Below the pieces are notes generated by a model. The model made no database searches, was not told where the DNA came from, and was given only the letters and a program-made list of their open reading frames with translations. A stretch of 21,218 nt of DNA, taken from positions 1 through 21,218 of IMG/VR virus record IMGVR_UViG_3300047586_000047. One strand, given 5' to 3'. Below are positions 2,659 to 19,922 of this stretch, piece by piece (position 1 is the first letter of the stretch; every line of letters starts with the position of its first letter). This DNA comes from a virus. Made by a program: the position numbers and the translations under genes.

Positions 2659-3113
2659 TCGTAGAACTGCGGATTCCGCTCGGCGATCTGCTCCAGCTCA
2701 TCCGCCGTCCAGCGCGTCTCCGCATCCGGCGACTGCGACCACAGCCGGGCGTACCAGGCCGCGATCGATCGCCGGTAAGACCCGGTCGCCGCCTTGAAAT
2801 GGTCGCCGCCGGCGTGTTTCGTCCGTGCCCGGGCCTTCAGCCATCCCAACAACATTTCTCCCAAATTTGACCGGTGGTCGAGTAGGCGGTGTTCCCCCGC
2901 CGTATCGAGACCGGAATCTGGCAGGGGGGTCTGCAGAGAGACCATCCCCTCCAGCACCGCCCGGAACTCCCGGTTGAGCTGGTCGAACTCCATGAGCATG
3001 CCCTGCGGCGGATCCACCCAGACCTGGATGCCCACCCCGGCCAGGCTCGCCTCGTCCGGGGCGTAAGCCTGCAGTGGCAGGAACTTCGTCACCTTCGGGA
3101 TCTTGATTTTCAT
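2541..3113 (-). CDS. Tail assembly chaperone, upstream frame (G-like)
   Basis: The gene begins at ATG 3113, which shares its A with the TGA stop of the tail-tube gene upstream (TGATG), and encodes 190 aa. The same frame stays open to 3803, but the part above 3113 is antisense-free shadow of the tail-tube gene. The start MKIKIPKVTKFLPLQAYAPD fits a small chaperone between tail tube and tape measure. The 0-frame product ends DAPATPS. Slippage at codons 170 and 171 (AAA AAA) would give a 258-aa fusion with the downstream frame. Residues about 67 to 81 (SGLDTAGEHRLLDHR) are encoded by a palindromic repeat (2876 to 2912) that occurs twice more in the window, so this segment is probably an insertion. 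There is no direct homology evidence; the call rests on position, size and frameshift geometry. Confidence 0.75.
   Translation of the reverse strand: MKIKIPKVTKFLPLQAYAPDEASLAGVGIQVWVDPPQGMLMEFDQLNREFRAVLEGMVSLQTPLPDSGLDTAGEHRLLDHRSNLGEMLLGWLKARARTKHAGGDHFKAATGSYRRSIAAWYARLWSQSPDAETRWTADELEQIAERNPQFYEWLCVSSWALIEAHRDEIKKGYRGPSGKSPAVDAPATPS
2601..2607 (-). other. Programmed -1 frameshift heptamer A_AAA_AAA
   Basis: On the minus strand the 0 frame reads ATA AAA AAA GGA. Seven consecutive A bases therefore form X_XXY_YYZ in exactly the phase needed for two tRNAs to slip back one base, and the next codon becomes AGG in the downstream frame. The shift joins 171 residues of the first protein to 87 of the second. 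This matches the known slippage in tail chaperone genes of lambda-like phages. I did not identify a clear downstream stimulatory hairpin by eye. Confidence 0.8.
2876..2912 (-). repeat. GLDT/LLD palindromic element, copy 2 (in frame in the tail chaperone)
   Basis: On the minus strand it reads GGTCTCGATACGG, a longer centre with GCGGGG, then CGCCTACTCGACC. It encodes GLDTAGEHRLLDH. Confidence 0.8.
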
Positions 3114-4114
3114 CACACCGCCGATTTGTTGGTGCAGACGTACAGCGTGAACATCTGTGCGCCGACCGTCCCGTACAGACCGTGGAATAGGCCCACATGC
3201 AGGTTGTTGCCGTCCTTCTCGGAGCCCATCGGCTGCAGATCCTCGAAAACGCCCCACATGCTGATTTTCAGCGTGTGACTCAGGCCGCTCCCGATCGCCG
3301 ATCCGGTCACCTTCAACTGGATGGCGTATGGCGTGCGCGCCTGCATGCCGGTGTACAGCGCATTGGCGTCCGAGTCGCCTTCCAACGTCAGCTTCAGCAT
3401 GGCCTCGAAGTAACTCTCGCCGTGCACATCGAACGTCAGGGCGCTGCCGTGGAATTTTGGGTGCAGCCCGGTAATCAACTCGAACGAGAAGTCGCGCAGC
3501 AGGCCAGTCTTTACCGAGCCTCCCACGCCGGACCAGGTCGTGTCGATGTAGAGTTGGGCTTTGTTGGCCACGATCGGCTCGATGGTTGGGATTGTCAGTG
3601 AAGAGGTGAATGTGGTCGGCGCGCAACTTTGGGCGAAACATTCTGCCGTGAGTTTGACGGCCTGGTTCTGCCCCATCGTCCCGGCGATGGTCAGCTTCTT
3701 GCACATCACGTAATTCAGCAAATACGCCTGCACGTCGTCGCCGATCTCGACCGTGAAGCTGTCCTGCGCGTTCGTGGCGGTCATGCTGGGCGTGAACGTC
3801 CATTCGTAATCGCCCTGGCCGGAGTGTTTCAGTATCCCGCTCAGGTCGCCCTTGACCGCCATACTGAGCAGCATCGGCAATATCTGGTAGTAGCCGTCAT
3901 CCACGTTCAATGTGAAGCTATCCACCAGTTGCTGGTACAGGTGCGCCTCCGCAGACCTGGCCGCCACCGCCAGGTTGTAGGCCGGGAAAATATACTTGCG
4001 ATCGCTCGGCACGGCCGCATCGCCCAGGAACATGCTGGTGGCATCCACCTCCACGCCCTTGGCGGTTTTCAACTCTTTGCCAAACTGGACTCTCTTGAAC
4101 ATGCGCTCGCCCAT
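3113..4114 (-). CDS. Tail tube protein, second paralogue
   Basis: A 333-aa protein closely related to its upstream neighbour at 4130 to 5134. Both start MGERMFK and share SMFLGDAAVPSDRK, AHLYQQLVD, MGQNQAVK, FHGLY and QPMGSEKDGNNLH. The length, beta-rich composition and place just before the chaperone pair fit a siphovirus tail tube protein, which stacks as hexameric rings between head and tip. Differences cluster at the two ends and around residues 90 to 100. The gene is 15 bases from the first copy, with a recognisable ribosome-binding site (ATAGGAGC) upstream of ATG 4114. Possible roles for a second copy are a mixed tube, a specialised ring at one end of the tail, or a decorated variant. 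The sequence alone does not decide. Confidence 0.82.
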   Translation of the reverse strand: MGERMFKRVQFGKELKTAKGVEVDATSMFLGDAAVPSDRKYIFPAYNLAVAARSAEAHLYQQLVDSFTLNVDDGYYQILPMLLSMAVKGDLSGILKHSGQGDYEWTFTPSMTATNAQDSFTVEIGDDVQAYLLNYVMCKKLTIAGTMGQNQAVKLTAECFAQSCAPTTFTSSLTIPTIEPIVANKAQLYIDTTWSGVGGSVKTGLLRDFSFELITGLHPKFHGSALTFDVHGESYFEAMLKLTLEGDSDANALYTGMQARTPYAIQLKVTGSAIGSGLSHTLKISMWGVFEDLQPMGSEKDGNNLHVGLFHGLYGTVGAQMFTLYVCTNKSAV

Positions 4115-4129
4115 GTTTTATGCTCCTAT

Positions 4130-5134
4130 CTAAACACTATTCCCATTGATCGTAACGGTGCAGGCCAGCATCGCCAGGCCGGTGCTTGGGGTTGGATCGT
4201 ACAAGCCGTGGAACAGCGCCACGTGCAGGTTGTTGCCGTCCTTCTCGGAACCCATCGGCTGCATCTCCTCGAATCGCCCCCACAGGTCGAAGATCATGCT
4301 GTAGGTCGTGCCGTTGGCAATCTGGCTGCCGATCGTCTTGAGCCGGATGGCGTACGGCGTCCTGGACTGGAAGCCGTCGTACAATGTGTCTGCATCCGAG
4401 TTGCCCTCCAGCGTCAGTTTCAGCATGGCGTCGATGTAACTTTCACCGTGCACGTCGAAACTCAGCCCGTTGCCGTGGAATTTCGGTTGCAACCCGGTGA
4501 TGATCTCCAAACTGAAATCACGCAGCAGACCGGTCGCCGGGGTGGCGCCCCTGGTGGCCCAGCTGGGGTTGATGTACAACTTGGTCTGGTTCGCCACGAT
4601 CGGTTCCACCGTCGGGATGGTCGCCGCGCCCGAGAAATCGCACGGGGCGAGATCCTGGGCGAAACATTCCGCCGTAACCTTGACGGCCTGGTTCTGGCCC
4701 ATTGCCCCGGCGATGGTCAGTTTCCTCGCCATGACATACGTCAGCGCATATTGTTCCACATCGTCGCCCACCTCGAAGCTGAACGAATCCTGCGAGTTGC
4801 TGGCTGTCCAGGACGGGCTGAAGTCCCACAGGTAATCGCCCTGCCCGGTCGTGACCAGGCTGGCGGTGACATTGCCCTTCAGCGCCATGCTGAGCAGCAT
4901 CGGCAGCGCCTGGAAATAGGCGTCATCCAGGTTCAGCGTGAACCCGTCCACCAGCTGCTGGTACAGGTGCGCGGCGTTCGCCCTGGCGGCCACCGCAATG
5001 TTATAGGCCGGAAAAACGAACTTCCGGTCGCTCGGCACGGCTGCATCACCCAGGAACATGCTGGTGGCAGTCTGCTTTGAGCCCTTGGTGCCTTCCTTCG
5101 CATATTGGATCTTCTTGAACATTCTCTCGCCCAT
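4130..5134 (-). CDS. Tail tube protein, first paralogue
   Basis: A 334-aa protein, first of two tandem paralogues. It has the same motifs as the copy at 3113 to 4114. A hand count over an ungapped stretch of 139 residues starting near SMFLGDAAVPSDRK gives about 100 identities. It starts at ATG 5134, two bases after the stop of the 80-aa gene. Members of this family form the inner tube of non-contractile tails. I see no extra immunoglobulin-like domain at the C-terminus. Both copies keep complete frames with no internal stop, so neither looks like a decaying duplicate. The antisense strand has a long open frame across this gene that I treat as a codon-bias shadow. Confidence 0.82.
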   Translation of the reverse strand: MGERMFKKIQYAKEGTKGSKQTATSMFLGDAAVPSDRKFVFPAYNIAVAARANAAHLYQQLVDGFTLNLDDAYFQALPMLLSMALKGNVTASLVTTGQGDYLWDFSPSWTASNSQDSFSFEVGDDVEQYALTYVMARKLTIAGAMGQNQAVKVTAECFAQDLAPCDFSGAATIPTVEPIVANQTKLYINPSWATRGATPATGLLRDFSLEIITGLQPKFHGNGLSFDVHGESYIDAMLKLTLEGNSDADTLYDGFQSRTPYAIRLKTIGSQIANGTTYSMIFDLWGRFEEMQPMGSEKDGNNLHVALFHGLYDPTPSTGLAMLACTVTINGNSV

Positions 5135-5136
5135 GT

Positions 5137-5379
5137 TTACGCTCCATTCTCGACGATCGGCGCCGGCTGCGGTTGGACCGCCTGGTCGCTATAGTTGCCG
5201 ATCTGGATGGCTGTATTCAGCACATCCAACAACCCCAGTTCTCTCGCCTGCGTTTTTGTCACGCTCCACGGCAGCCCCGGTATGCCCTGGCCGTAATCGT
5301 GTCCCGCTACGACGCCCGTTGCGCCGGCGAAACAGTACACTTTTTTTATCGCAACACCACTCGTCTGATTCGCCATCAT
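5137..5379 (-). CDS. Small protein between tail terminator and tail tube
   Basis: An 80-aa frame starting at ATG 5379, or at the adjacent ATG 5376, behind a GAAGG ribosome-binding site. It fits tightly between a 9-bp repeat and the first tail-tube gene. The sequence includes IKKVYCFAGATGVVAGHDYG and WSVTKTQARELGLLDVLNTA, with a Pro/Gln-rich tail, and no domain I recognise. The position suggests a minor tail or assembly protein. A run of seven A bases inside it resembles a slippery site, but the shifted frame looks random. Confidence 0.6.
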   Translation of the reverse strand: MMANQTSGVAIKKVYCFAGATGVVAGHDYGQGIPGLPWSVTKTQARELGLLDVLNTAIQIGNYSDQAVQPQPAPIVENGA

Positions 5380-5393
5380 CTGCCTTCTTCCTT

Positions 5394-5420
5394 GACATGT
5401 CAGACTTATTAGACCTATTA
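5394..5420. repeat. 9-bp-periodic repeat, cluster 2
   Basis: GACATGTCA, GACTTATTA, GACCTATTA, ending exactly at the stop codon of the tail-terminator-like gene. Confidence 0.8.
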
Positions 5421-5900
5421 AATTTGCCCTGATAAATTCTGTTTGACTTCCCAGCGGATCACGATCCCGTGGTGCGGCGCTTCGTCGCCGTATTTCAGCA
5501 CGCTCAGCGCCAGGTTTTCCTCCTCGAGCAAATAAAAGCGCGTCACCAGTCCACCCAGGGTGCTGTTCGCCTTGGCGGCGTACAGGATCCGCCCGTAAAA
5601 TGGCAAAATAAACGCCAGGTTGGCCTTTTTGACGTCCGCCGTCAGGTGCAGCTCCGTCTCGCCTTTCCAGATCAGGATGGTCGGGATCGAGCTGCTGGCG
5701 TCGCCGTAATGCGGCACCACATCAACCGGCCAGCTCAGTGCGATCGGGCCTTTGTCTGCCAGGTCCGGTAACGACTCCGGGAACTCGTCCTTGACCGTGC
5801 ACTTGGGTGTCCGCACCAGCTGCCCGCGTCCATAATCGAACGCCCAGACGGCGTTCAACACATCCAGCCATAGTTCGACGGTCCTTGTATCGATGGTCAT
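5418..5900 (-). CDS. Probable tail terminator (tail completion) protein
   Basis: A 160-aa protein whose ATG (5900) shares its A with the TAA of the gp10-like gene upstream (TAATG), so the two are translationally coupled. The size and place between a gp10-like head-tail joining protein and the tail tube are those of tail terminator proteins, which cap the tail tube and connect it to the head. It starts MTIDTRTVELWLDVLNAVWA and continues with alternating beta segments (PTILIWKGETELHLTADV; GGLVTRFYLLEEENLALSVL), consistent with the alpha/beta fold of that group. I found no diagnostic motif, so the call is positional. A 9-bp-periodic repeat begins right at its stop codon. Confidence 0.6.
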   Translation of the reverse strand: MTIDTRTVELWLDVLNAVWAFDYGRGQLVRTPKCTVKDEFPESLPDLADKGPIALSWPVDVVPHYGDASSSIPTILIWKGETELHLTADVKKANLAFILPFYGRILYAAKANSTLGGLVTRFYLLEEENLALSVLKYGDEAPHHGIVIRWEVKQNLSGQI

Positions 5901-6409: not shown

Positions 6410-6509
6410 TCTGTCTGCACTTTCAGCTTTGTATTTCTTAATCTTTCTTCTTCAATCTCTGCTCGCCGGCAACTTGTCCCCACGAAGTGGGGATCGTCAT
6501 TTTTTCCTT

Positions 6510-6572
6510 GACTTATCAGACATGTTAGACTTTTTAGACTTATTAGATTTGTCCGACTTACTAGATCATGTA
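6510..6572. repeat. 9-bp-periodic repeat, cluster 3
   Basis: GA-initial units occur at exact 9-base steps from 6510 (GACTTATCA, GACATGTTA, GACTTTTTA, GACTTATTA, GATTTGTCC, GACTTACTA, GATCATGTA). The last two carry the connector stop codon and its final codons. Confidence 0.85.
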
Positions 6573-7577
6573 ATGGTCCCGGATCCGCTCCAGGTCATAA
6601 CGCGGGAAGGCGTCGTTGTAATAGACCTGCCCCAGCTCGGCGTTACCGGTCTTGCCGGCGTAACCGGTCCCGGCCTTGTTCGCCATCAGCGTGGCGATCT
6701 CCTTGCACAGAAACAGGATATCCGCCGGTACCAGGTAGCGGCTGATGCCCGCCAGCGCGGCATGGATGGCCAGTGTGGTCCCATTCACGCCCCTGGACAC
6801 GACGAACTTGCGGTAAACGTCCACCGCCGCCCCGGTCGGATGCGCCGCGCCCAGCGTCTTGTTCCAGTGCCGCTGCACGTAGACCGTGTTCGTGGCGATG
6901 TCCAGGATGCGCATCTGCTCCACGCCGATCCGGATGATCTCGCCGATAATCACCAGTGCTGCATTGGCCAGCACGATTGTCTCTTGATTGGCATCGATCG
7001 TACCGTTAAGCGTGATGACCGCCGTCACCGGCGTGTCGTAGCCCGTCACCAGCTCCTGCTCGGATCCGATCAGCGCCACCGCCCCCGGGCTGATCTTCGA
7101 CCCGTCGCTCACCTGCAGGCCTGTGGCGTTGGCATCCTGCTGCGCCGCGACCGTCGCCCCCGTATCGGCGTTTTCATCCCACAAACCCCACTTCCCGGGG
7201 ATCTCCACGTCATCCTGGTCGGTGGACCACGTCCCCAGGTTCGTGGCATTCTCCTCATCCACCTCCAGCCAGCTGTATGGACCGTTCAGCCAGTGACGTT
7301 CGTCTGGCTTGTAGATAAAATCAGTTGCCGCCAGGGAAACATCGTCGTTGACGATCTCCCCGGTCAGATTCAACAGCACCGGAATGTACAGCCGCCCTCC
7401 GCCGTTGCCTCGAAAATATCTTGTCTCACAGATCGGGATGAAGTTCCCGATCTCCTGCAGGATCGTCTGGCTGGCCGCCTGGATCTGCTTGTACAACAAA
7501 TCCACGCCTCCCGCCGGCGGCGCCGGGTCCAGCAGTAGGTCGGCTATTGTGCAGAAAATCTGTGCATAGGTGGTCAT
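6561..7577 (-). CDS. Head-tail connector, gp6-like, with a large central insertion
   Basis: A 338-aa protein whose ATG (7577) directly follows the TAA of the preceding gene. The N-terminus (TYAQIFCTIADLLLDPAPPA, then YKQIQAASQTILQEIGNFI) and the C-terminus (CKEIATLMANKAGTGYAGKT, then FPRYDLERIRDHYMI) are helical and look like the two ends of a gp6-type head-tail adaptor. Known gp6 proteins are near 100 to 200 aa. The middle here, about residues 55 to 285, is beta-rich and carries repeated hydrophobic strands (PVTAVITLNGTIDANQETIV). I read it as an adaptor with an inserted beta domain. An alternative is an unrelated virion protein in the adaptor's place. Its TAG stop lies inside a 9-bp-periodic repeat. 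Confidence 0.6.
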   Translation of the reverse strand: MTTYAQIFCTIADLLLDPAPPAGGVDLLYKQIQAASQTILQEIGNFIPICETRYFRGNGGGRLYIPVLLNLTGEIVNDDVSLAATDFIYKPDERHWLNGPYSWLEVDEENATNLGTWSTDQDDVEIPGKWGLWDENADTGATVAAQQDANATGLQVSDGSKISPGAVALIGSEQELVTGYDTPVTAVITLNGTIDANQETIVLANAALVIIGEIIRIGVEQMRILDIATNTVYVQRHWNKTLGAAHPTGAAVDVYRKFVVSRGVNGTTLAIHAALAGISRYLVPADILFLCKEIATLMANKAGTGYAGKTGNAELGQVYYNDAFPRYDLERIRDHYMI

Positions 7578-7859
7578 TTATTTCTTCCTGCCGCTCCCCT
7601 TTTTAGCCGGCGCCACCACCGCCTTCTCCGCTTCCGGCTCGATCACTGCCGTTTCCACTGCCCGAGCCGGCTGCCGGTCGAGTAGCCCGGAGGGCGTATC
7701 GAGACCCAACCTGCCAGCCTTCTCCACGATCCTGGCATACCCACCCTCCACAAAAGCCAGTGCCTGCTCCTTCCGGATATCCATCCCGACTTCCAGCACA
7801 TCGCCGGCGTTGAAATTGCCTTGCGGCCCGGCCGCCACAGTTAACATTTTGATTTTCAC
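7578..7859 (-). CDS. Small head protein (gene between capsid cluster and connector)
   Basis: I choose GTG 7859 as the start because AAGAAGGA lies just upstream. The frame stays open to a TTG at 7880, but that codon is inside a palindromic repeat. The 93-aa product begins VKIKMLTVAAGPQGNFNAGD and continues VLEVGMDIRKEQALAFVEGG, a pattern common in small phage head-region proteins of unknown role. Residues about 51 to 62 (LGLDTPSGLLDR) are encoded by a palindromic repeat (7676 to 7706) inserted in frame after the conserved part. The remainder is a low-complexity Ala/Glu/Lys tail ending KKGSGRKK. The stop is immediately followed by the ATG of the connector gene. Confidence 0.7.
   Translation of the reverse strand: MKIKMLTVAAGPQGNFNAGDVLEVGMDIRKEQALAFVEGGYARIVEKAGRLGLDTPSGLLDRQPARAVETAVIEPEAEKAVVAPAKKGSGRKK
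7676..7706 (-). repeat. GLDT/LLD palindromic element, copy 3 (in frame in a small head protein)
   Basis: On the minus strand it reads GGTCTCGATACGCC, CTCCG, then GGCTACTCGACC. It encodes GLDTPSGLLDR, the same frame as in the chaperone gene. Confidence 0.85.
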
Positions 7860-7872
7860 GTTTTCCTTCTTT

Positions 7873-7929
7873 CTGCCCAAGGCGGCGTCATACCGCCCTT
7901 GGGCGTGTCGGCGATACGAATCGCCGACC
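7873..7929. repeat. Double-hairpin element, copy 1 (intergenic)
   Basis: Two adjacent hairpins, one built on GGCGG/CCGCC and one on GTCGGCGA/TCGCCGAC, fill the gap just before the 93-aa gene. More than 50 bases are shared with the copy at 12713 to 12766. Confidence 0.85.
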
Positions 7930-8371: not shown

Positions 8372-8399
8372 TTGTAGGGGCGAGATATATCTCGCCCCT
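8372..8399. repeat. TAGGGGCG palindromic element, copy 1
   Basis: TTGTAGGGGCGAGATATATC followed by TCGCCCCT, a near-perfect palindrome in the gap between the beta-helix gene and the 128-aa gene. Confidence 0.8.
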
Positions 8400-9357: not shown

Positions 9358-9401
9358 GGTATTTTCTCCTTCTGAGAGGCCGGGGTCTCCGGCCAACCAT
9401 C

Positions 9402-9458
9402 CGCCGGGGCGGCATCATGCCGCCGCCGGCGACTTCGGCGATATGGATCGCCGAAGTT
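9402..9458. repeat. Double-hairpin element, variant copy 2 (intergenic)
   Basis: It has the same two-hairpin layout (GGCGGCATCATGCCGCC, then CTTCGGCGAT with ATCGCCGAAG) but diverged arms that still pair. It lies between the 147-aa gene and the beta-helix gene. Confidence 0.7.
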
Positions 9459-9485: not shown

Positions 9486-9929
9486 CTACACGCCCACAAC
9501 GCAGGCGCGCTTCGCAACGGTCGCATCGTCCGTGATCGGGGCCAACTTGCCGTGGTACTGGATTGCGATCATGTTCCCGTAGGCGATGTTCGCCGCCGAG
9601 ATGGTGATCGTGCCCTGGATGTAGCGCTTGAGCGGCTTGTACACGTCCACGATCAGCAGCAGACCGTTCAGATCGTCCCCCGGGGTCAGGCTGGTCGCCG
9701 CAGCCGATGCGCCGGTCAGGGTCGCCATGTAGGTGTCGGCGTTGGTGGTGCTGCCTTGCGCCACCAGGGTGGCAATCCCGCCCGTCGCGCTGTCCGTGAT
9801 CGGCTGGATGAAGACCACCCCGTCCCAGCCGGCCATGTCCAGGATGGTGGAATTGTTGTCGAGGGTGTTGGTCGCCGATACGGGCGCATGCACCATCGCA
9901 ATCAACACGTTTTGGGTTAGTTCGTTCAT
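9486..9929 (-). CDS. Small capsid-associated protein, possible decoration protein
   Basis: A 147-aa protein starting at ATG 9929 behind GGAGAAACGA, the first gene after the major capsid gene. The sequence is rich in Thr, Ala, Ile and Val with few charges (TNTLDNNSTILDMAGWDGVV; ITDSATGGIATLVAQGS). Its C-terminal strand pattern includes RYIQGTITISAANIAYGNMI. Size, composition and location fit a capsid-stabilising or decoration protein, but no family motif is obvious. The gap on its 5' side is filled by an SPPAPL-type repeat and the gap on its 3' side by a double hairpin. Confidence 0.65.
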   Translation of the reverse strand: MNELTQNVLIAMVHAPVSATNTLDNNSTILDMAGWDGVVFIQPITDSATGGIATLVAQGSTTNADTYMATLTGASAAATSLTPGDDLNGLLLIVDVYKPLKRYIQGTITISAANIAYGNMIAIQYHGKLAPITDDATVAKRACVVGV

Positions 9930-9955
9930 GTTCGTTTCTCCTTACTTTTATTCTT

Positions 9956-9999
9956 CCCCTCTCTATACCTTCGGTATAGAGAGGGGGTAGGGGGTGAGG
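9956..9999 (-). repeat. SPPAPL-type palindromic element, copy 1 (intergenic)
   Basis: It starts immediately after the capsid stop. On the minus strand it opens CCTCACCCCC like the other copies, but the hairpin arms differ (CTCTCTATACC with GGTATAGAGAG), so the stem is kept with different bases. Confidence 0.8.
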
Positions 10000-11235
10000 T
10001 TACGCCAGTTTCACCCGCACGAACGCCTCTTCCAACACCGGCATTCCGTCCGATTCCATCCGGCCGATGAAGCCCGTCTGGTTGGTGGCCGCATACAGCT
10101 CCACCAGGCGCTGGATCGAGAACTCGAGCGAGTCCACGATGTGGTAATAACCGAAATCGCCCAGTATGCCCACGTACAAGCCGGTCGTGAAGGTGCTTGG
10201 CGCATACTCGCTCATGTTCACCGGGAAGTTCAGCAGGGTGTCCGGAGCGCCGGCCGCCAGACTCGGCTGCCACATGTAGTGGCCGTCGTCGTCCTGCAGC
10301 TTGGCGATCTGTTTGAGCGCCGAGCGGTGGAAGATCCAGCGCGCCTTCGCCCAGTATCCGCCCTTCAGCGTGTACTTGGCTTCCTGCAAGCCGTCCGTCT
10401 GGATGCTCGTGGTGGTGTTTCCGGTCGAAACGTCCCGGCCGGTCGTGATGCCGTCAGCCGAGGCGGTAAACACGCCCAGCGGTTCGTTGGCGCCCGTGCC
10501 GGTCATCCCGGCCTTCTCGAACGCGATCCCGAACTTGTACGCCAGACGCTGGATCACCAGATTGTCGACAGCCGGGTTCAACCGTAGCATCTTATTGCTG
10601 ATCTTAATGAACTTGGCCAGCGGGTGCGGGGTCAGTTCCCGTTTTCCGAAGGCCATTGTGCTGTCTTCCGCCCCGATCAGCAGTTCGCTCGTCCAGGTCG
10701 GGTCTGATGCGTCCGCGGCCAGGTATGGTTGCCCCAGGCTCTGCGCGCTGGTCAGTTTCTGCACGTCCGCGAATTGCCGGATAAAGGTCTGGTCGTCGAT
10801 CGCCTGGATCAGGTTCGCCACGAACTGCTCCGGGGCGATGGTGTACCCGCCCGAAGCATCCGCATCCGCTTGCAGCGCCCGTAGTTCCGGGCTGAGCGCC
10901 CCGTTTGTGCGTGCGCGCAGGATCGGACCTTTGACGCCGTTGATCAAAAAGGCCCGTATTTCGGCCTTCGCCTTGGCATCGTCCGCATTGACGCTGGCGT
11001 GCCCTTCCGGGCGTTGCGGCTCGGTCGCCAGTTGCCCCAGCTCGAGCTCGGCCGCTTCCAGTTTCTCGCTCCGCTCGATCTGCACTTGCAGCTTCTCAAC
11101 CTCTGCCATGATGCGGTCGTACTGGGTATTCTCTTCGGCCGACATGTCCCGCTTGGCGGTGTCGGCGGCGTCCACCAGCTCACGTGCCTGGTGGACCAGG
11201 GTTGCCCTTTTTTGGCGCAATTCAATCGATTTCAT
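10000..11235 (-). CDS. Major capsid protein, HK97 fold
   Basis: ATG 11235 (MKSIELRQKRATLVHQ) is preceded by AAGGAGA, giving 411 aa; upstream in-frame codons lack a ribosome-binding site. The first 70 or so residues are a charged helical delta/scaffold domain (SAEENTQYDRIMAEVEKLQV). A linker follows and then the capsid core, opening near residue 130 with SGGYTIAPEQFV. Core phrases typical of HK97-family capsids include TFIRQFADVQKLTS, PHPLAKFIKISNKMLRLNPA, LAYKFGIAFEKAGMTGTGAN and LLNFPVNMSEYAPS. Processing by the upstream protease probably occurs in the region about residues 100 to 130 (inference). An SPPAPL-type hairpin begins next to the stop. Confidence 0.93.
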   Translation of the reverse strand: MKSIELRQKRATLVHQARELVDAADTAKRDMSAEENTQYDRIMAEVEKLQVQIERSEKLEAAELELGQLATEPQRPEGHASVNADDAKAKAEIRAFLINGVKGPILRARTNGALSPELRALQADADASGGYTIAPEQFVANLIQAIDDQTFIRQFADVQKLTSAQSLGQPYLAADASDPTWTSELLIGAEDSTMAFGKRELTPHPLAKFIKISNKMLRLNPAVDNLVIQRLAYKFGIAFEKAGMTGTGANEPLGVFTASADGITTGRDVSTGNTTTSIQTDGLQEAKYTLKGGYWAKARWIFHRSALKQIAKLQDDDGHYMWQPSLAAGAPDTLLNFPVNMSEYAPSTFTTGLYVGILGDFGYYHIVDSLEFSIQRLVELYAATNQTGFIGRMESDGMPVLEEAFVRVKLA

Positions 11236-11279
11236 GGTACATCTCCTTGATTTTAATTTTTTTCCTCTCCTCATCTTCT

Positions 11280-11326
11280 CCCCTCGCCTGATCGTCCTTT
11301 GATCAGGCGAAGGGTCAGGGGTGAGG
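11280..11326 (-). repeat. SPPAPL-type palindromic element, copy 2 (intergenic)
   Basis: It lies five bases after the protease stop. On the minus strand CCTCACCCCTGACCC is followed by arms CGCCTGATC and GATCAGGCG. The orientation matches all other copies. Confidence 0.85.
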
Positions 11327-11331
11327 CGGGG

Positions 11332-12378
11332 TTATAACTTCTCCGCCAGCTCCAGGCGCCTGCGCTTCAGGGCGTTCCGCACCTGCGGACCCCGGGCATC
11401 GCTTTCCCCATCGGCGGCCTCCTGGCCGTCCTCCGGGCGGATCTGGGCTATCTCGTAAAGCTTCGAGCGCACGTTCGCGCTCGTCGTCGGGTACGCCGGG
11501 AATGTCACCGGCGATACATCGTATAGTTGGTCTATATTGATCAACTCCCGCAGCGGCAGTAGATTCTTATCTTCCGGAAAAGTCCACTTCTCGCCTTCCG
11601 GCAGTACCGTCCAGGCATACGAGCTCTGATGGACATCTCCACGCTTCACGCGTGCATAGAAATTCATCGCCTCTTGATCATCAGGGTTGATGTCGATGGC
11701 ATAATGCAACCCATCTGTTTGCTGGGAAAGATGCAGCGTGTTGGATGTGGTGCGCCCCAGCACGATATCCCAGTCATGGTTTGGCGAACCGATCACGTCC
11801 GGATTTTTGGCCAGCACATTGGTGAACGCCCCCGGCCGCACAATCTCCCGGAACAGGCCGGCGATGACCGTTTCCTGGTTGAAAACCGCCGCCACGCCCT
11901 CGATCACCGGCTTCTGCTCCGCATTCTGCCCGGCCCTTACGGAGATATTCAGATATCGCCGTTCGATATCTTGTCCTTCTCCCCTCGCCTGACCGTCGGA
12001 CAGGAGAGGGGCCGGGGGGCTGGCGCTCGCCAGCTCCGCCGGCGTTACCTTGGCGTCCCTCAAATGCAGCGCCAGGTGATTCCAGACCCCCTGCCGGTCC
12101 GCATCCGGGATGTTCGCCCCGCCCATCGCCCCGTTCAGCACCCCGATCCCGCTCTGGCAGCCCTTCACGTTCGCCGCATGGATGCTCCCATCCGCATCCA
12201 CCTCGTGGTGGATGAACTTGTACGATCCCTTCAGGGTGGCATCCTTATCCGGGTCCTGCCAGGCAAACGCCTGCCGGTAATACGTCTCCGTGTCGCCGTT
12301 CTTTAGGTTCGCCTTGTTCCCCGGGCCGTCCCACGCGCCCTCGGATATGGCGGTATGATGACTCTTGATCGCTGGCAT
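11332..12378 (-). CDS. Prohead protease (HK97 type) with an extra N-terminal domain
   Basis: A 348-aa protein starting at ATG 12378 behind AAGGAAGG. Residues 1 to about 115 form a separate domain (SEGAWDGPGNKANLKNGDTE, AFAWQDPDKD, SYKFIHHEVDADGSIHAANV, GGANIPDADRQGVWNHLALH) known from other phages as a stand-alone or fused small domain of unclear role. Residues about 138 to 330 are the HK97 protease, which cleaves capsid delta domains during maturation. The likely catalytic His is H201 (SPNHDWD) and the likely Ser lies in HQSSYAWTV (S252 or S253). The two domains are joined by SPPAPLLSDGQARGEGQ (about residues 120 to 136), encoded by a palindromic repeat inserted in frame. A second copy of that repeat lies just after the stop. 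Confidence 0.9.
   Translation of the reverse strand: MPAIKSHHTAISEGAWDGPGNKANLKNGDTETYYRQAFAWQDPDKDATLKGSYKFIHHEVDADGSIHAANVKGCQSGIGVLNGAMGGANIPDADRQGVWNHLALHLRDAKVTPAELASASPPAPLLSDGQARGEGQDIERRYLNISVRAGQNAEQKPVIEGVAAVFNQETVIAGLFREIVRPGAFTNVLAKNPDVIGSPNHDWDIVLGRTTSNTLHLSQQTDGLHYAIDINPDDQEAMNFYARVKRGDVHQSSYAWTVLPEGEKWTFPEDKNLLPLRELINIDQLYDVSPVTFPAYPTTSANVRSKLYEIAQIRPEDGQEAADGESDARGPQVRNALKRRRLELAEKL
11980..12021 (-). repeat. SPPAPL-type palindromic element, copy 3 (in frame in the protease)
   Basis: It encodes SPPAPLLSDGQARGEG at the junction of the two domains of the prohead protease. The upstream half is slightly worn (AGCCCCCCGG), but the arms still pair. Confidence 0.85.
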
Positions 12379-12390
12379 ATCTACCTTCCT

Positions 12391-14067
12391 TTACTCATCG
12401 TGATTGCTCCCCTCGCCTGATCGTTCTTCGATCGGGAGAGGGGCCGGGGGTGAGGATCGAAACAACCCGAACACCTGCTCCACCAACAGCCCGGGCAGTT
12501 CTTTCTCCCAGGCCTCCAGTAACTCGCTCAAAATTCCGCTGTCAGAAATGGACCTCGCCGTCTCCAGGTTGCCGGCCGTATAAGCCTTGATCATCTCTTC
12601 CATCGCCGGCGGCCCTGCCCTGTTCAACAGACCGCTGTAACTTTCCACTGCCGGCCGCAGCGCCCGCTCCATGAACCTGGCATGTTCTGCATAAAAATTT
12701 TCCAGCCAGGCTGCCCAAGGCGGCTCCATGCCGCCATTGGGCGTGTCGGCGACACGAGTCGCCGACGCCCTCTCTATTTTCTTGATCCCGTCCCTCAGGT
12801 CGTGCAGCTCCCGCCGCACGATCCGCTCGGCCGCCTCCGCCACCACCGGCGCAAAACTCTGTTTTACCGACGCCGGCGCCATGTTCAGCGGCGTCAGGTA
12901 GGTCTGCCCTTGCCCGTTCGGCAGCGGGTTCCGGTTCTCCATCGCCAGGATGTCGTCTGCCGAGAGCCAGCCCCATTGCCGGCCGGTGGCGTACGATTTG
13001 TAACGGGTGTCGATGTCGCCGCGCAGCAGACTGTCCATCAGCGTCTCGCAGAAATACGGCCCGCGTTCCTCCGGGCTCAGCAGGTTGAAATTGATCGCCT
13101 GGTCGAATCTCACCGTCCACGGCAATATCGTGTGCACCACGAAACTCAGCAGGAATTGCTCCACGCTCGCATAGGTGGAGGCCTTGTCGCTCGCATCCAG
13201 CAGCGTCAGCGGGTAACGGTAATACCGGGCGATCTCCGCCACCTGGAAGGCCCTTGTCTGCAGGAACTGGGCGTCCTCCGGCGGGATCCCGATTACGTTT
13301 ACTTTCATTCCCTCTTCTGCAATTTTCGTCTTGTGGCTGTTGGCGCTGCCCTGGTACTCGTCGTTCCATTCAAGTTTCAACCGGTCATAAGCCTTATCGC
13401 TCAGTGCCTTCGGATGCTCGAGTACGATCCCCGGCCGCGCATCGTTGGCGAAAAACTTTCCGCCGAATTCCTCCGCCGCCATCGACAAAGCCAGCGCATT
13501 GCGCGCCATCTGGATCGGCGAGTAGCCCACCAGCCCGTCGAACCCGAACCCCGGCACCTGCATGATCTCTTTGGCTGCGAAATTTCTCGGCGAACCGTCC
13601 GCTTGGCGGTAGTGATAGACTTTCACCCCGTCCTTGCGGTCCACCTCCATCCGGTCCGGACGCAGCGGCCACAGCTCCGCCACCTGGCCTCCCTTGTTCC
13701 GCACGATTTGGTAATAGGCGTTCCCCCAGGCGCAGGCGTGTCCTGCTCCTAGTTCCCAGCCCGTCTGGGCGGTGTGTTCCGGGTTGATCGCATCATGGAT
13801 GATCGGGTAGAGCGGGTGCTCGAACGCCCGCCGCTTCCCGCCCCCCGGCAGCCGTCGGTACAGGATCTTCGGCAGCATCGCCGTCGTCTCGGCGATCCCC
13901 CGGATGCACGCATACGCCGCCGATACGCTCAGCGCCGATTCCGGGCTGATATCTTTCCCGGTGTAGGTCTCCCAACCATATCCGTAGACGATCTTCCCGG
14001 GCGGCGTCTCGCTCACTTTCCAGGTCGTGGATCCGTGCTGCCGTAATTCAACCAGTTTACTCAGCAT
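12391..14067 (-). CDS. Portal protein, HK97 family
   Basis: A 558-aa protein starting at ATG 14067 that overlaps the end of the membrane-protein gene by 11 bases. Typical HK97/SPP1-like portal phrases are SVSAAYACIRGIAETTAMLP, HPLYPIIHDAINPEHTA, GNAYYQIVRNKGGQVAELWP, GLVGYSPIQMARNALALSMA, and RYYRYPLTLLDASDKASTYA with its following VEQFLLSFV. The portal is the dodecameric gate at one capsid vertex and the docking site of the terminase. The C-terminal part departs from the family. Residues about 434 to 452 (TRVADTPNGGMEPPWAAW) are encoded by a double-hairpin repeat, and residues about 538 to 553 (SSPPAPLPIEERSGEG) by an SPPAPL repeat, leaving only NHDE before the stop. Both are probable late insertions in a tolerant region. 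Confidence 0.92.
   Translation of the reverse strand: MLSKLVELRQHGSTTWKVSETPPGKIVYGYGWETYTGKDISPESALSVSAAYACIRGIAETTAMLPKILYRRLPGGGKRRAFEHPLYPIIHDAINPEHTAQTGWELGAGHACAWGNAYYQIVRNKGGQVAELWPLRPDRMEVDRKDGVKVYHYRQADGSPRNFAAKEIMQVPGFGFDGLVGYSPIQMARNALALSMAAEEFGGKFFANDARPGIVLEHPKALSDKAYDRLKLEWNDEYQGSANSHKTKIAEEGMKVNVIGIPPEDAQFLQTRAFQVAEIARYYRYPLTLLDASDKASTYASVEQFLLSFVVHTILPWTVRFDQAINFNLLSPEERGPYFCETLMDSLLRGDIDTRYKSYATGRQWGWLSADDILAMENRNPLPNGQGQTYLTPLNMAPASVKQSFAPVVAEAAERIVRRELHDLRDGIKKIERASATRVADTPNGGMEPPWAAWLENFYAEHARFMERALRPAVESYSGLLNRAGPPAMEEMIKAYTAGNLETARSISDSGILSELLEAWEKELPGLLVEQVFGLFRSSPPAPLPIEERSGEGSNHDE
12409..12455 (-). repeat. SPPAPL-type palindromic element, copy 4 (in frame in the portal)
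   Basis: It encodes SSPPAPLPIEERSGEG, the portal C-terminus. The arms are CTCTCCCGATCG and its near complement, and only four codons follow before the stop. Confidence 0.88.
12713..12766 (-). repeat. Double-hairpin element, copy 3 (in frame in the portal)
   Basis: It encodes ATRVADTPNGGMEPPWAAW. Relative to copy 1 the second hairpin has C-G where copy 1 has T-A, a compensatory change. Confidence 0.85.
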
Positions 14068-14281
14068 CCGGTTTTGCCTCTTTAGAGTTCCGCGGTTCCA
14101 CCAGCCAGATGCTCAGGCCAATCAGTATGGCCCCGCTGACGGCCATCGCCGCCGGCCAGGAAATGGCAAAACCCAGCCCTGTAAATAACAGGACCAGGCC
14201 TAAAATCAAAAGGATATCTGGCACTTCGATGATCGGTTTCTTGCCCCCAGCTTTTTTGGGGGTCTTTTCTGGTTCGGTCAT
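14057..14281 (-). CDS. Small membrane protein with two transmembrane helices
   Basis: A 74-aa protein starting at ATG 14281 behind AGGCGAG. It is the first gene after the leader and terminator segment. A charged, Lys/Pro-rich N-terminus (about residues 1 to 20) is followed by two hydrophobic helices (about 22 to 40, ILLILGLVLLFTGLGFAI; about 44 to 61, AMAVSGAILIGLSIWLV) and a charged tail. It overlaps the portal gene by 11 bases, so it belongs to the head operon. I do not recognise a family. A membrane protein at this position is unusual. Superinfection exclusion, membrane-linked assembly or a small holin-like role are possible but unsupported by any motif. Confidence 0.7.
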   Translation of the reverse strand: MTEPEKTPKKAGGKKPIIEVPDILLILGLVLLFTGLGFAISWPAAMAVSGAILIGLSIWLVEPRNSKEAKPDAE

Positions 14282-14324
14282 CTCGCCTCATGTCGATGAT
14301 TTTCCAGGGCAGCAATCTCGGGTT

Positions 14325-14376
14325 AAAACAAAACGCCCGCCAGAGGATGGACCTTGCGATCCATGTCTGGCGGGCG
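14325..14376 (-). terminator. Strong intrinsic terminator inside the leader of the head operon
   Basis: On the minus strand an 11-bp perfect stem (CGCCCGCCAGA with TCTGGCGGGCG) continues past a small bulge into a further 5-bp stem (ATGGA with TCCAT) around a loop of TCGCAAGG. It is followed at once by TTTTGTTTT (14333 to 14325). This is a canonical rho-independent terminator pointing toward the membrane-protein and portal genes. On the plus strand no T-run follows. As nothing is encoded between the promoter at 14430 to 14458 and this site, it would end a transcript of about 100 nt unless read through. Confidence 0.8.
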
Positions 14377-14423
14377 GTAAACTCCGTCTTTCCCTATTTA
14401 TGAGCGTCCCCATCCGCTCAATT
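14325..14423 (-). ncRNA. Candidate short leader RNA upstream of the head operon
   Basis: A transcript from the promoter at 14430 to 14458 would start near 14423 and stop at the terminator near 14325. Its 5' part forms a small hairpin (14401 to 14420, stem TGAGCG with CGCTCA, loop GATGGGGA). A possible weaker stem (TAAA with TTTA, 14378 to 14400) follows, then the terminator. The first loop contains GGATGG, which can pair with CCATCC in the 3' arm of the terminator. This suggests either a conditional leader or a free small RNA. I do not recognise an RNA family. The transcript is predicted, not seen. Confidence 0.4.
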
Positions 14424-14429
14424 GCCTCT

Positions 14430-14458
14430 ATCCTAGCATATAAATTCCAAAATTACAA
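14430..14458 (-). promoter_or_regulatory. Sigma70-type promoter with extended -10, facing the head operon
   Basis: On the minus strand the -35 box TTGTAA (14458 to 14453) is separated by 17 bp from TAGGAT (14435 to 14430). TG lies one base upstream of the latter, giving an extended -10 (TGCTAGGAT). The surrounding AT-rich spacer contrasts with the GC-rich coding sequence. The predicted start is near 14423. It lies in the largest intergenic gap and faces the membrane protein, portal and all downstream head and tail genes, so it is a good candidate for a late promoter. Confidence 0.55.
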
Positions 14459-14461
14459 GCT

Positions 14462-14477
14462 CGTTTCCACGGAAACG
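14462..14477. promoter_or_regulatory. Perfect 7+7 dyad next to the -35 box (candidate operator)
   Basis: The minus strand reads CGTTTCCGTGGAAACG: two perfect 7-base arms around a 2-base centre. It lies three bases upstream of the -35 box, centred about 46 bases upstream of the predicted transcription start. This is where a dimeric activator that touches RNA polymerase would bind. It is followed on the plus strand by a T-run and could also be read as a plus-strand terminator, but no plus-strand gene needs one. Confidence 0.45.
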
Positions 14478-14483
14478 TGTTTT

Positions 14484-14511
14484 TTGTAGGGGCGAGTCGC
14501 CGACTCGCCCG
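14484..14511. repeat. TAGGGGCG palindromic element, copy 2
   Basis: TTGTAGGGGCGAGTCG then CCGACTCGCCC, lying between the stop of the GGGPSL-protein gene and the candidate operator. Confidence 0.8.
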
Positions 14512-14519
14512 CCTCTGTC

Positions 14520-15281
14520 TCAGCAGCGGCGTATGCCACAATGGGGACATCTATCGCTATCAGGGCCACAACTATTCGCACCGGATGTGTATTTAGCGCC
14601 GCACGCAGGGCAACCGTACGCTGGAGCCGTATCCATTGTGTCCTTCGTGTTGATCTCTTTTCCTTCCCATTTCCCGAAGACTCTCACCAGCGGCCCGCTC
14701 ACCGCCCGGATCCGCTCCGCATGCGGGCATTTTTCCAGCGCCGGCCGCCAACACTCCAGGTGTTCCTCCAGCGTCATCTTGTACGCATTATTCCTCGGGT
14801 TCGCATCCGCCGGCCGCGGCCCCTGGTAACAATCCATCCCTGCCAGTAGCACCGGATTGCATCCCATCCAACACGCCAGCCACGTCGCCAGGTGGCTGCT
14901 GAAACACCCCCGCCACCATTCGACTCCACTGAGATCAACATCCGACCATTCCGCCAGCGGGCTGACTCTCATCCCCTTGAACCTGCCCATCGCCTCCAGC
15001 ATCTTCGCATTGCTCTCCGGACTGTCCCAGAATACCATGTAATCAGCCTGCACCAGTTTTTTTGGCGCCTGCACCAGCTTTATCGGCGCCTGCACATACT
15101 CCAGCCCGTGATGATTCACCGCAATCCATAGCATTCTCCCCTCTCCTGATTGTTCTTCGATCAGGAGAGGGGCTGGGGGTGAGGAAATCCGCCCCACGTC
15201 CCTCTTCAGACTTGGCCCCCCGCCCATCACCACCGCCGGCCGGCCCTGGTATTTGTCTCGCAACTTTGCAATTGGAATCAA
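14520..15281 (-). CDS. GGGPSL-motif (MptE/DUF115-like) protein with C-terminal zinc ribbon
   Basis: A 253-aa frame starting at TTG 15281, three bases after the large-terminase stop, with GAGGAG upstream; no in-frame ATG fits. The N-terminus GRPAVVMGGGPSLKRDV carries the GGGPSL loop of the MptE-like/DUF115 group (Rossmann-like proteins related to a pterin diphosphokinase and to Maf glycosyltransferases). Later parts fit the same fold (MLWIAVNHHGLEYV; YMVFWDSPES; GCNPVLLAGMDCYQG). Residues about 33 to 48 (SSPPAPLLIEEQSGEG) come from a palindromic repeat inserted between the first helix and the second strand. Residues about 63 to 80 are 21-bp tandem repeats (LVQAPIK, LVQAPKK, LVQA). The C-terminus has CPAC (224 to 227) and CPHC (245 to 248), a zinc ribbon. 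The function is unknown; nucleotide-sugar transfer or DNA/virion modification is speculation. Confidence 0.65.
   Translation of the reverse strand: MIPIAKLRDKYQGRPAVVMGGGPSLKRDVGRISSPPAPLLIEEQSGEGRMLWIAVNHHGLEYVQAPIKLVQAPKKLVQADYMVFWDSPESNAKMLEAMGRFKGMRVSPLAEWSDVDLSGVEWWRGCFSSHLATWLACWMGCNPVLLAGMDCYQGPRPADANPRNNAYKMTLEEHLECWRPALEKCPHAERIRAVSGPLVRVFGKWEGKEINTKDTMDTAPAYGCPACGAKYTSGANSCGPDSDRCPHCGIRRC
15044..15095 (-). repeat. 21-bp tandem repeat inside the GGGPSL-protein gene
   Basis: About 2.5 units beginning GTGCAGGCGCC on the minus strand encode LVQAPIK, LVQAPKK, LVQA. The period keeps the frame. Confidence 0.8.
15138..15184 (-). repeat. SPPAPL-type palindromic element, copy 5 (in frame in the GGGPSL protein)
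   Basis: It encodes SSPPAPLLIEEQSGEG between two core elements of the Rossmann-like fold. It has near-perfect arms (CTCTCCTGATCG) and the same frame as copies 3 and 4. Confidence 0.88.
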
Positions 15282-15284
15282 TTC

Positions 15285-17039
15285 TTAAACGCTCCTCACC
15301 CCTCTCGTCTCATATACCGACCCGCTCTCCCCCTGGTTCCGCATCGCCACGTCCAGCCCCATCAACAGCGTCACGATCCCGTCGATCTTCTCCTTCGATT
15401 TTGACTTATCCGGCTTGATATTCCCGGCTGGATCGGTCGTGGCGATCACATTGTCCGCCATCCAGTTCAGCACCGGGTTGTCGCCGTGCGCCAGTTTATG
15501 CCTGATCACCAGCCGCTCCAGTTCCTTCATCGGCGGGCTCATGCTCTTATACCCCTGCCCGAAATTGAACACCGGAATGTTCAAGCCCTTTTTCTCGAGC
15601 ATCTGCACCAGGAACTCGGCGTTCCAACGGTCGAATGGGATCGACATGATCTGGAACTGTTCGGCGTCCTGCTCGATTTCGTCCAGGATCCAGTCATAAT
15701 CGATCACGTTCCCCGGCGTGGCCGTCAAATATTCCTGGTCCCGCCACTGGTCGTAAGGCACCCCGTCATTTTTGCATCTCTCCACCAGGTTGTCTTCCGG
15801 GATCCAGAACCGGCACACCACGAACCACGCCTCCTCCTCCGTCAGCGGCGGGAAGACGTGCGTCAACGATGTGATATCCAGTGTCGAAGACATATCCAGC
15901 CCGGAATAACACGGCCTCCCGGCTAAATAATCCGGCAGATCCAGCGACGCCACCGGCCCCCTGCACAGCCGCCAGTCGTCCATCGGCATCCACTTGATCT
16001 CGCCGTGCACCCAGGTGTTGAGCTCCTTCTGCAAAAAGGCGTTCAACGCACTGGTCATGCTCTTCGCCCGCTCGGCCTTCGTCCGCATGTCCGACCATTT
16101 TTTGCTCACGCCCAGGTTTGGATTAGATTTGATCCAGGTCGACTCGTCCCGCCAGTCGTCGCCCTCGTCCAGCGTGTAAATGATCCCGAACCAGGCGTCA
16201 TCCTCCACCAGCCCTTCCAGGACCTGGCGCGTGTGCTCGTGCACCTCCCAGCAGACGCTCTGCCGGTTCGTCCCCGCTGTGCTGATCGCAATGATCATCG
16301 GCTGCCGCCGGCTCCCGGTCGCCGTCTCGAGCACATCCCAGACCGACCGGGTTTTGTGCGCATGTAACTCATCCACGATCGCCCCGTGGATGTTCAAGCC
16401 GTCCATCGTGTCGCTGTCTGCCCCCAGCGGTTCGAACTTCTGGTCCATCTCCGGCCGGTTCAAATTGTCTTTGAACTTGATCACGCCCCGCTTCCGCAGC
16501 ATCGGGCTCCGTCTCACCATCCTGATCGCCTCGCCGTGCACGATCCGGGCCTGGTCCCGCTTCGTGGCCGCCGTGTAGACCTCCGCCCCTGGCTCCCCGC
16601 CCGCCACTTCATCCGCAAATGCCAGATATAACCCGATCCCTGCCGCCCAGGTGCTTTTCCCTCCCTTCCTGGCCACCTCGATATATGCCGTCCTGAACCG
16701 GCGCGTGCCGCTGCTGTCCTCCCTCTGCCTGTTCTTCTCGACGATCCAGCGTGCATGCGGCGCCCGCTTCCACCCAAACAGGCACCAGGTGATGAACTGT
16801 TGCCACGGTTCGAGCACCAGTGGCTGGCCGGCCCATTCGCCTTTCGATTGCCGCAGCACGCCAAAGAACTGCAATGCCCGCTCCGCCGCCTCCTGGTCGA
16901 ACACCAGGCCCCGTTTCGCGCCTGTTTTTAGGTCATTCAGGTGCCGCTGGCAGGCCTTCCGCACCAGGCTCCCGGCCACGATCCGCCCGGCCACCACGTC
17001 CCGCGCATATCGCTCCGCTGGGTGCAGTCTCTTGGGCAT
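15285..17039 (-). CDS. terL: Terminase large subunit, HK97 type
   Basis: A 584-aa packaging motor subunit starting at ATG 17039, which shares its A with the TAA of the 70-aa gene (TAATG). The ATPase domain has Walker A at about residues 123 to 130 (ARKGGKST) and Walker B with the catalytic Glu at about 221 to 224 (AIVDELHAH). A coupling segment around ATGSRRQPMIIAISTAGTN follows. The C-terminal nuclease domain shows the acidic cluster in YSGLDMSSTLDITSL and a second site in KSKEKIDGIVTLLMGLD. The enzyme drives DNA into the prohead through the portal and cuts the concatemer. The first seven codons are duplicated 286 bp upstream, behind the small-terminase stop, so the 5' junction has been rearranged. 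Confidence 0.95.
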   Translation of the reverse strand: MPKRLHPAERYARDVVAGRIVAGSLVRKACQRHLNDLKTGAKRGLVFDQEAAERALQFFGVLRQSKGEWAGQPLVLEPWQQFITWCLFGWKRAPHARWIVEKNRQREDSSGTRRFRTAYIEVARKGGKSTWAAGIGLYLAFADEVAGGEPGAEVYTAATKRDQARIVHGEAIRMVRRSPMLRKRGVIKFKDNLNRPEMDQKFEPLGADSDTMDGLNIHGAIVDELHAHKTRSVWDVLETATGSRRQPMIIAISTAGTNRQSVCWEVHEHTRQVLEGLVEDDAWFGIIYTLDEGDDWRDESTWIKSNPNLGVSKKWSDMRTKAERAKSMTSALNAFLQKELNTWVHGEIKWMPMDDWRLCRGPVASLDLPDYLAGRPCYSGLDMSSTLDITSLTHVFPPLTEEEAWFVVCRFWIPEDNLVERCKNDGVPYDQWRDQEYLTATPGNVIDYDWILDEIEQDAEQFQIMSIPFDRWNAEFLVQMLEKKGLNIPVFNFGQGYKSMSPPMKELERLVIRHKLAHGDNPVLNWMADNVIATTDPAGNIKPDKSKSKEKIDGIVTLLMGLDVAMRNQGESGSVYETRGVRSV

Positions 17040-19686: not shown

Positions 19687-19922
19687 CAATGCCGGCCATT
19701 CTTTTTGTCGAGCAAATTCTGCCCGGCTGCGAGACTGTCATGGCTAACACCCTGCTCGCCTTCCGCGCACCAATCCATTGGGCGGACGGTCGGCCAAAGA
19801 GTAACGATACCTTGCGGCAATATACCCGCCGCCGGCGGGTGGCGCCGGCAAACGCCCTGGCCATTGGCATCTTGGAGAATAGGACTGTAGAATCTACACA
19901 GAGTGCAGGAGGTCGGGCTCAT
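19686..19922 (-). CDS. Small four-cysteine protein, possible metal-binding
   Basis: I choose ATG 19922, which overlaps the upstream stop as ATGA, giving 78 aa. The pattern SCTLCRFYSPILQDANGQGV, then CRRHPPAA, WPTVRP and DWCAEGE is a recurrent small-protein signature in phages and bacteria (CxxC, CRxxPP, W-P-x-DWCGE) with four Cys placed to bind zinc or an iron-sulfur cluster. The longer frame to 19994 lies inside the neighbouring genes. The role is unknown. Confidence 0.7.
   Translation of the reverse strand: MSPTSCTLCRFYSPILQDANGQGVCRRHPPAAGILPQGIVTLWPTVRPMDWCAEGEQGVSHDSLAAGQNLLDKKNGRH

Follow-up and report, generated by a model that had tools for sequence, protein, structure and literature searches.

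The stretch of DNA analysed here (the window) is a linear IMG/VR viral record of 21,218 bp, and its minus strand carries an HK97-type head module comprising TerS, TerL, an MptE-like GGGPSL protein, the portal, an S78 protease and the capsid. Among cellular sequences the best match is an Anaerolineales MAG, whose TerL is 77% identical. The nearest phage is L177 (also L130/L163), with identities of 75% for the protease, 72% for the portal, 81% for the capsid and 51% for GGGPSL; other near phages are L180 (also L081/L136; capsid 82%), L004 (portal 63%) and L132-L135 (TerL 74%). The relatives compared with the window are 50-80% identical to it and are therefore too distant for exact element junctions to be read.

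Five copies of a palindromic element (family 1) lie in and between the genes of this module. They are matched by a covariance model, R1, which was built from 17 related-phage copies and none from the window and was searched with filters off. R1 returns five copies in the window, all on the minus (coding) strand, with E-values from 1.9e-12 to 1e-6, and no sixth; its only other matches there are reverse-strand echoes of the five and one match at E 0.93. An Rfam search of the window matched no family. The copies are as follows:

15138..15184, minus strand: GGGPSL copy (R1 58.7 bits, E 1.9e-12), in frame in the gene at 14520-15281
12409..12455, minus strand: portal copy (R1 E 2.7e-11), forming the C-terminal tail of the gene at 12391-14067
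11981..12023, minus strand: protease copy, shorter (R1 E 1e-6), in frame in the gene at 11332-12378
11280..11326, minus strand: protease/capsid intergenic copy (R1 E 1e-10), 5 nt past the protease stop
9956..9999, minus strand: capsid/147-aa gene intergenic copy (R1 E 1.1e-9), abutting the capsid stop

A preliminary description of this DNA had reported five copies in the orientation of transcription, three of them coding and read in the same frame. The R1 matches bear this out, and the three coding copies share one register, in which codons begin at element base 3. Taken alone, the three agreeing frames are weak evidence, because two sense frames are open in the window version of the element and such agreement arises about 1 time in 4 by chance. 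Several details needed adjustment. The opening said to be common to all five is found in four, which start CCTCACCCC, and not in the protease copy, which starts CCAGCCCCCC. Two copies were said to abut stop codons: the capsid-side copy does, the capsid TAA at 10000-10002 being directly joined to it (TAA/CCTCACC), but the protease-side copy starts 5 nt after the stop. In-frame inserts had been claimed in three genes, which holds for GGGPSL and the protease, but the portal copy is a C-terminal tail and not internal.

Both intergenic copies have perfect stems (fold z of -6.3 for the 9956 copy and -4.4 for the 11280 copy). The arms of the 9956 copy differ from those of the other window copies, as had been noticed at the outset, yet they pair in a perfect 14-bp stem. 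Among the coding copies GGGPSL folds well (z -3.2), whereas the protease and portal copies contain two mismatched pairs each and fold slightly more stably than shuffles (z -0.7 and -1.6).

The element measures 49 nt in the 19 related-phage copies that align without gaps; copies of 43-47 nt are shorter in the middle. It begins with an unpaired 12-nt head, CCYCACCCCYNR, continues through a 9-nt outer arm, a 6-nt inner arm and a 7-nt loop into the matching arms, and ends GGAGAGGGG. The outer stem is fixed (CCCCTCYCC/GGMGAGGGG), while the inner stem is variable but still paired and the loop often contains AGAAC. Pairing is found in 94.4% of cells, a figure slightly favoured by the requirement for at least four inner pairs when copies were chosen (the excluded hits were nearly all mis-registered); moving the partner by one column reduced it to about 60%. 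Six of the 15 pairs change on both sides, in 33 cells where shuffles give 12.7; none of 500 shuffles attained the observed covariation score, 0.304 (shuffle mean 0.065). Part of the double change is arm exchange (AAAT..ATTT versus ATTT..AAAT) and not point compensation. The covarying arms uphold the earlier suggestion that the hairpin is maintained. Homogenisation of copies within each phage fits the repeated arms of L177 but fails in G761, which has many different inner stems; in-gene copies in that phage have perfect inner stems.

We then compared the coding copies with homologues. The GGGPSL block, SSPPAPLLIEEQSGEG (about residues 33-48), follows the first helix and precedes the next strand; it is absent in L164, L227 and L232, for a net gain in the window of about 14 residues. 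The empty sites read RV-PPGA-VMISVN in L227, RV-PKDA-ILIAVN in L232 and EL-PPNC-VLISVN in L164, where the window has RI-SSPPAPLLIEEQSGEGRM-LWIAVN. L177 carries at the same place an element of its own with different arms, one copy nested inside another. GGGPSL also contains a short tandem duplication, VQAPIKLVQAPKKLVQA (window 15050-15110), absent in L164, L227 and L232.

The protease block, SPPAPLLSDGQARGEG, lies where a linker joins the N-terminal domain to the S78 protease domain. This linker is 4-7 residues long in the fused proteases of L132, L137, L138, L140 and L141, about 19 in the window and about 22 in L177, which gives the window a net gain of 12-15 residues. In the L177 linker the inserted sequence comes from an unrelated palindrome (TTCGGTGACTCATGTCGCCGAA with a second hairpin). 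That the protease copy is the scar of a two-gene fusion was considered and rejected, since many relatives have a fused protease with a short linker. The portal block forms the C-terminal tail, SSPPAPLPIEERSGEG; the portals of L004 and L227 end differently, and that of L177 ends within its own element copy, which provides the TAA stop.

The preliminary description had proposed aligning homologues to see whether relatives lack the blocks, and they do, in three phages for GGGPSL and in five fused proteases. Judged from these alignments, the GGGPSL and protease coding copies are insertions. The same description had held that unrelated phages carrying the same blocks at the same positions would speak against insertion. 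L177 does have elements at the GGGPSL and portal sites, but their arms differ and its protease insert is unrelated; sites filled with different sequences indicate reuse of the position, not conservation of the block as a protein feature. In AlphaFold models of modest depth (mean pLDDT 68 for GGGPSL and 66 for the protease), pLDDT falls below 50 within the inserts themselves (residues 34-47 of GGGPSL and 119-136 of the protease), and the internal blocks of both proteins are predicted to be disordered.

The palindrome in the L177 protease belongs to a second, unrelated family, a two-hairpin element of the form GTCGGCGA..TCGCCGAC followed by GGCGGC..GCCGCC. Its copies include the following:

12711..12766, minus strand: in frame in the portal gene, about residues 434-452, opposite a 14-residue gap in the L004 portal
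9400..9457, minus strand: between the 147-aa and 325-aa genes
7873..7928, minus strand: between the 128-aa and 100-aa genes
L177:14898-14960, sense: in frame in the L177 protease linker

All 13 copies of this family (three in the window and ten in relatives) are sense, after one palindrome artefact was dropped, an antisense match produced by reading a sense copy in reverse. At the protease/capsid junction L132 has a second-family copy where the window and L177 have family 1, a swap indicating that two unrelated palindromes use the same niches.

The window holds further repeats. A pair of neighbouring homologous genes (3113-4114 and 4130-5134; about 75% DNA identity) probably stems from duplication of a tail gene. 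Three intergenic gaps (2234-2292, 5373-5431 and 6498-6574) contain arrays of the 9-bp unit TCAGACTTR, and two more intergenic palindromes of the GGGGCGA..TCGCCCC type lie at 14490-14510 and 8376-8399. A 34-nt repeat, GGTCGAGTAGCCCG..CGTATCGAGACC, is present in opposite orientations at 2205-2238 and 7676-7709, the latter within a 100-aa gene (7578-7880).

Occupancy of the intergenic junctions varies among the relatives. The protease/capsid junction has no family-1 copy in L004, L180 and L224 and a different copy in L177 and L227; the capsid/147-aa junction spans only about 15 bp in L004 and holds a different copy in L227. Most phage copies occupy such short intergenic gaps, where they lie a median of 12 nt past the stop and 19 nt ahead of the next start. 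A stop triplet stands immediately upstream of 7 of 40 phage copies (1.9 expected, p 0.002). As to transcription signals, none of six terminator-like sites falls on a family-1 copy and the copies have no U-tract, and a search for sigma-70-like promoters, the only promoter type sought, found none in window 9900-15300. A purine directly precedes 34 of 40 phage copies, and none of 17 calls for coding copies uses the frame that starts at element base 1; target and frame preferences are possible.

Orientation is strict in the phages. All 50 head-pattern matches in 11 whole records point one way, and all 40 in-register copies in nine records with gene calls are sense, as are 30 of 30 in viral loci of the AGAAC subtype, which largely overlap the nine records; phage genes are mostly unidirectional, so sense to transcription is inseparable here from a fixed orientation to replication. 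In two draft host genomes, scored with a simple gene caller, about 16-17 copies are sense versus 25 antisense (Fisher p 2.7e-10 for 16:25 against the phages), a count blurred by host copies that are symmetrical or in head-to-head pairs. Between these extremes stands a broader viral set with generic heads, at 109 sense versus 51 antisense. Stop codons do not account for the orientation, as two of the three frames are open in either direction in the window version. The strict sense bias, with the placement behind stops, suggests that in phages the element is recognised at the RNA level or, at the minimum, that antisense copies are eliminated.

The family extends well beyond the window. A generic pattern of head and outer stem occurs in 179 of 396 Anaerolineae genomes, with up to 170 copies and reversed-pattern controls near zero, and in at least 119 viral stretches, some of them perhaps host sequence. 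The AGAAC-loop subtype was found in 21 viral stretches and in 4 of the 396 class genomes, at one copy each, a small share of the host elements; a prophage origin of these host copies was rejected, because the three examined lie beside secA, within an FGE-like gene and within a chromosomal-looking gene pair. A scan of 400 Anaerolineales genomes for the window's inner stem, allowing up to three mismatches, found no match. Strict in-register counts are 11 in G761, 7 in G762, 5 in the window, 5 in G765 and 4 in G764, and L004, L164 and L140 have no family-1 copies. In G762, at 19770 and 7782 (G762:C1:7695-7782), and at L163:6101-6200, one copy lies within another of like orientation, and the right arm of the outer copy is still there. 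Host genes carry in-frame copies too: an FGE-like domain in G342 (L236:1479-1550) reads EKAARTPPPAPPLAKNTPGEGRLWPWGDEW / PPPAPPLAKNTPGEG, and one gene in G165 contains the element twice. The search of hosts and related phages that the preliminary description had called for showed the element amplified in phages and the family common in Anaerolineae, but recovered the window's inner stem from none of the 400 genomes. Its view that the repeat is probably host-derived is not supported in that form, given this absence, the rarity of the loop subtype in hosts and the difference in orientation.

Copy number and position differ between related phages, and empty sites exist. No mobilising enzyme for the element emerged from the ten phage records, none of which has Y1_Tnp, or from the host Y1 loci inspected. 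Strong Y1_Tnp matches (E <1e-15) occur in 8 of 12 element-rich and 4 of 12 element-free host genomes, 7 of the 12 element-free genomes having any Y1 match. With the best locus taken from each element-rich genome, 0 of 12 Y1 loci is immediately flanked by elements, and the nearest case among these 12 is one clear copy about 1 kb away, in L169. Genomes G320, G183 and G283 contain 91-104 element copies yet have weak Y1 matches only.

With a probability of roughly two-thirds, we regard the five copies as REP-like palindromic elements, short and non-autonomous, whose number has grown within an Anaerolineae phage lineage. The DNA hairpin would drive the formation of new copies, through either insertion or template switching, and the enzyme would come in trans. 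In densely packed operons only sense copies would survive, the transcript hairpin behind a stop being harmless or useful, and in-frame landings in loops, linkers and C-termini may survive as translated decorations of virion proteins. We regard the coding role as an incidental, tolerated effect.

The most substantial competing account, plausible although we would not favour it, holds that the copies are intercistronic RNA hairpins kept to stabilise, process or punctuate mRNA in a long late operon, spread by recombination, with the coding copies as slips. It would explain why the element is sense-only and sits between stop and ribosome-binding site, why a second unrelated hairpin family occupies the same niches with the same bias, and why the two intergenic window stems are perfect while two coding copies are mismatched. 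It sits poorly with the many in-frame and nested copies, the variable occupancy of junctions, the relatives that lack the element and the perfect inner stems of in-gene copies in G761, and the lack of a U-tract sets the element apart from an ordinary terminator. Passive acquisition of host repeats by recombination, without phage-specific amplification, is unlikely: hosts do share the head and outer stem, in up to 170 copies, and have in-frame copies of their own, but the window's inner stem is missing from the 400 Anaerolineales genomes, the AGAAC subtype is rare in hosts yet present in 21 viral stretches, and host copies look unoriented where phage copies are sense-only.

Movement by a Y1 HUH transposase of the IS200/IS605 class, as for GTAG REPs, is less probable again. 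The element's unpaired 5' tag on a hairpin recalls GTAG REPs (PMC3733652), and strong Y1 matches are commoner in element-rich genomes. The GTAG tag itself is missing, though, no Y1 gene examined is immediately flanked by the element, none is present in the phage records, and three element-rich genomes have only weak matches; a RAYT link is not supported by these results. It is barely conceivable that there are no insertions at all and that proline-rich linkers look repetitive in GC-rich DNA. The segments are indeed low-complexity, C-rich and located in loops, but the R1 E-values reach 1e-12 with essentially no other match in the window, the reversed-pattern controls are near zero in hosts, the arms covary and empty sites exist. 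The linker reading is rejected, and the palindromic elements are real. A bolder extension of the preferred reading, that the multiplying phage elements are a phage-borne, strand-restricted REP-like subfamily acting as self-copying intercistronic RNA punctuation, with the second palindrome independently in the same role and both adding loops to capsid-assembly proteins, is speculative and on balance doubtful.

Among known systems, the preliminary description had likened the coding copies to the Rickettsia palindromic elements (RPEs), and the likeness stands. RPEs are palindromic, lie in frame in unrelated genes and are tolerated by host proteins (Ogata 2000, 2002, as described in PMC2229807 and PMC3733652); in-frame insertions that homologues lack are likewise found here in GGGPSL and the protease. 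The comparison is one of behaviour, since RPEs are 105-146 bp long and occupy a bacterial chromosome (PMC2229807), whereas the present element is 43-49 bp, lies in phage virion genes and is always sense. With the GTAG/CGTC REPs (Di Nocera 2013, PMC3733652) it shares a stem-loop, an unpaired tag at one end, placement near 3' ends and intragenic copies in loops or linkers, but its tag is CCYCACCCC and its stem is longer and bipartite. The aligned copies carry no GTAG tag in the head, and the CGTC tag of CGTC REPs, RPE-4 and RPE-6 is absent from both consensus ends. The element is REP-like in the broad sense of a short, repeated stem-loop with many copies and compensatory change. PMC3733652 is silent on phages, and the word "phage" appears neither there nor in PMC2229807. 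Pseudomonas REPs and their RAYTs (Loper 2012, PMC3390384) are comparable, since those palindromic repeats also occur throughout the genome and lineages have versions of their own. Mobile genetic elements are found in some Pseudomonas REP deserts (PMC3390384), whereas here the phages are dense in copies and no cognate RAYT was found.

The PeSL cassettes of T4-type phages and the inverted-repeat motif of HGTV-1 are also repeated stem-loops between phage genes and are thought to be mobile, but PeSLs carry an early promoter (Arbiol 2010, as cited in PMC3950731 and PMC4503421), and the present copies are associated with virion genes, have no sigma-70-like promoter and are in part coding. MITEs and ERIC/RU elements with open frames (Delihas, PMC2229807, PMC2759123) are likewise small non-autonomous repeats readable in frame; the present element is shorter, with a single hairpin and a one-sided tag. 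Its outer stem pairs while the 12-nt head does not, and the 50-80% identical relatives offer no near-identical empty site from which a target-site duplication could be read. We found no description of this repeat in literature that scarcely included subscription journals. Protein-coding palindromes are known from bacteria, but a sense-only phage subfamily that invades virion genes appears to be new.

The same type of event is now seen in phage portal, head protease and GGGPSL genes, with both empty and filled relatives. The sense-only bias, the reuse of sites by two palindromes and the nesting make REP-like movement and upkeep testable in small genomes. For those who annotate Anaerolineae proteins, SPPAPL..GEG peptides are likely to be element-encoded, and for the phages themselves the element is a source of new loops in virion proteins.
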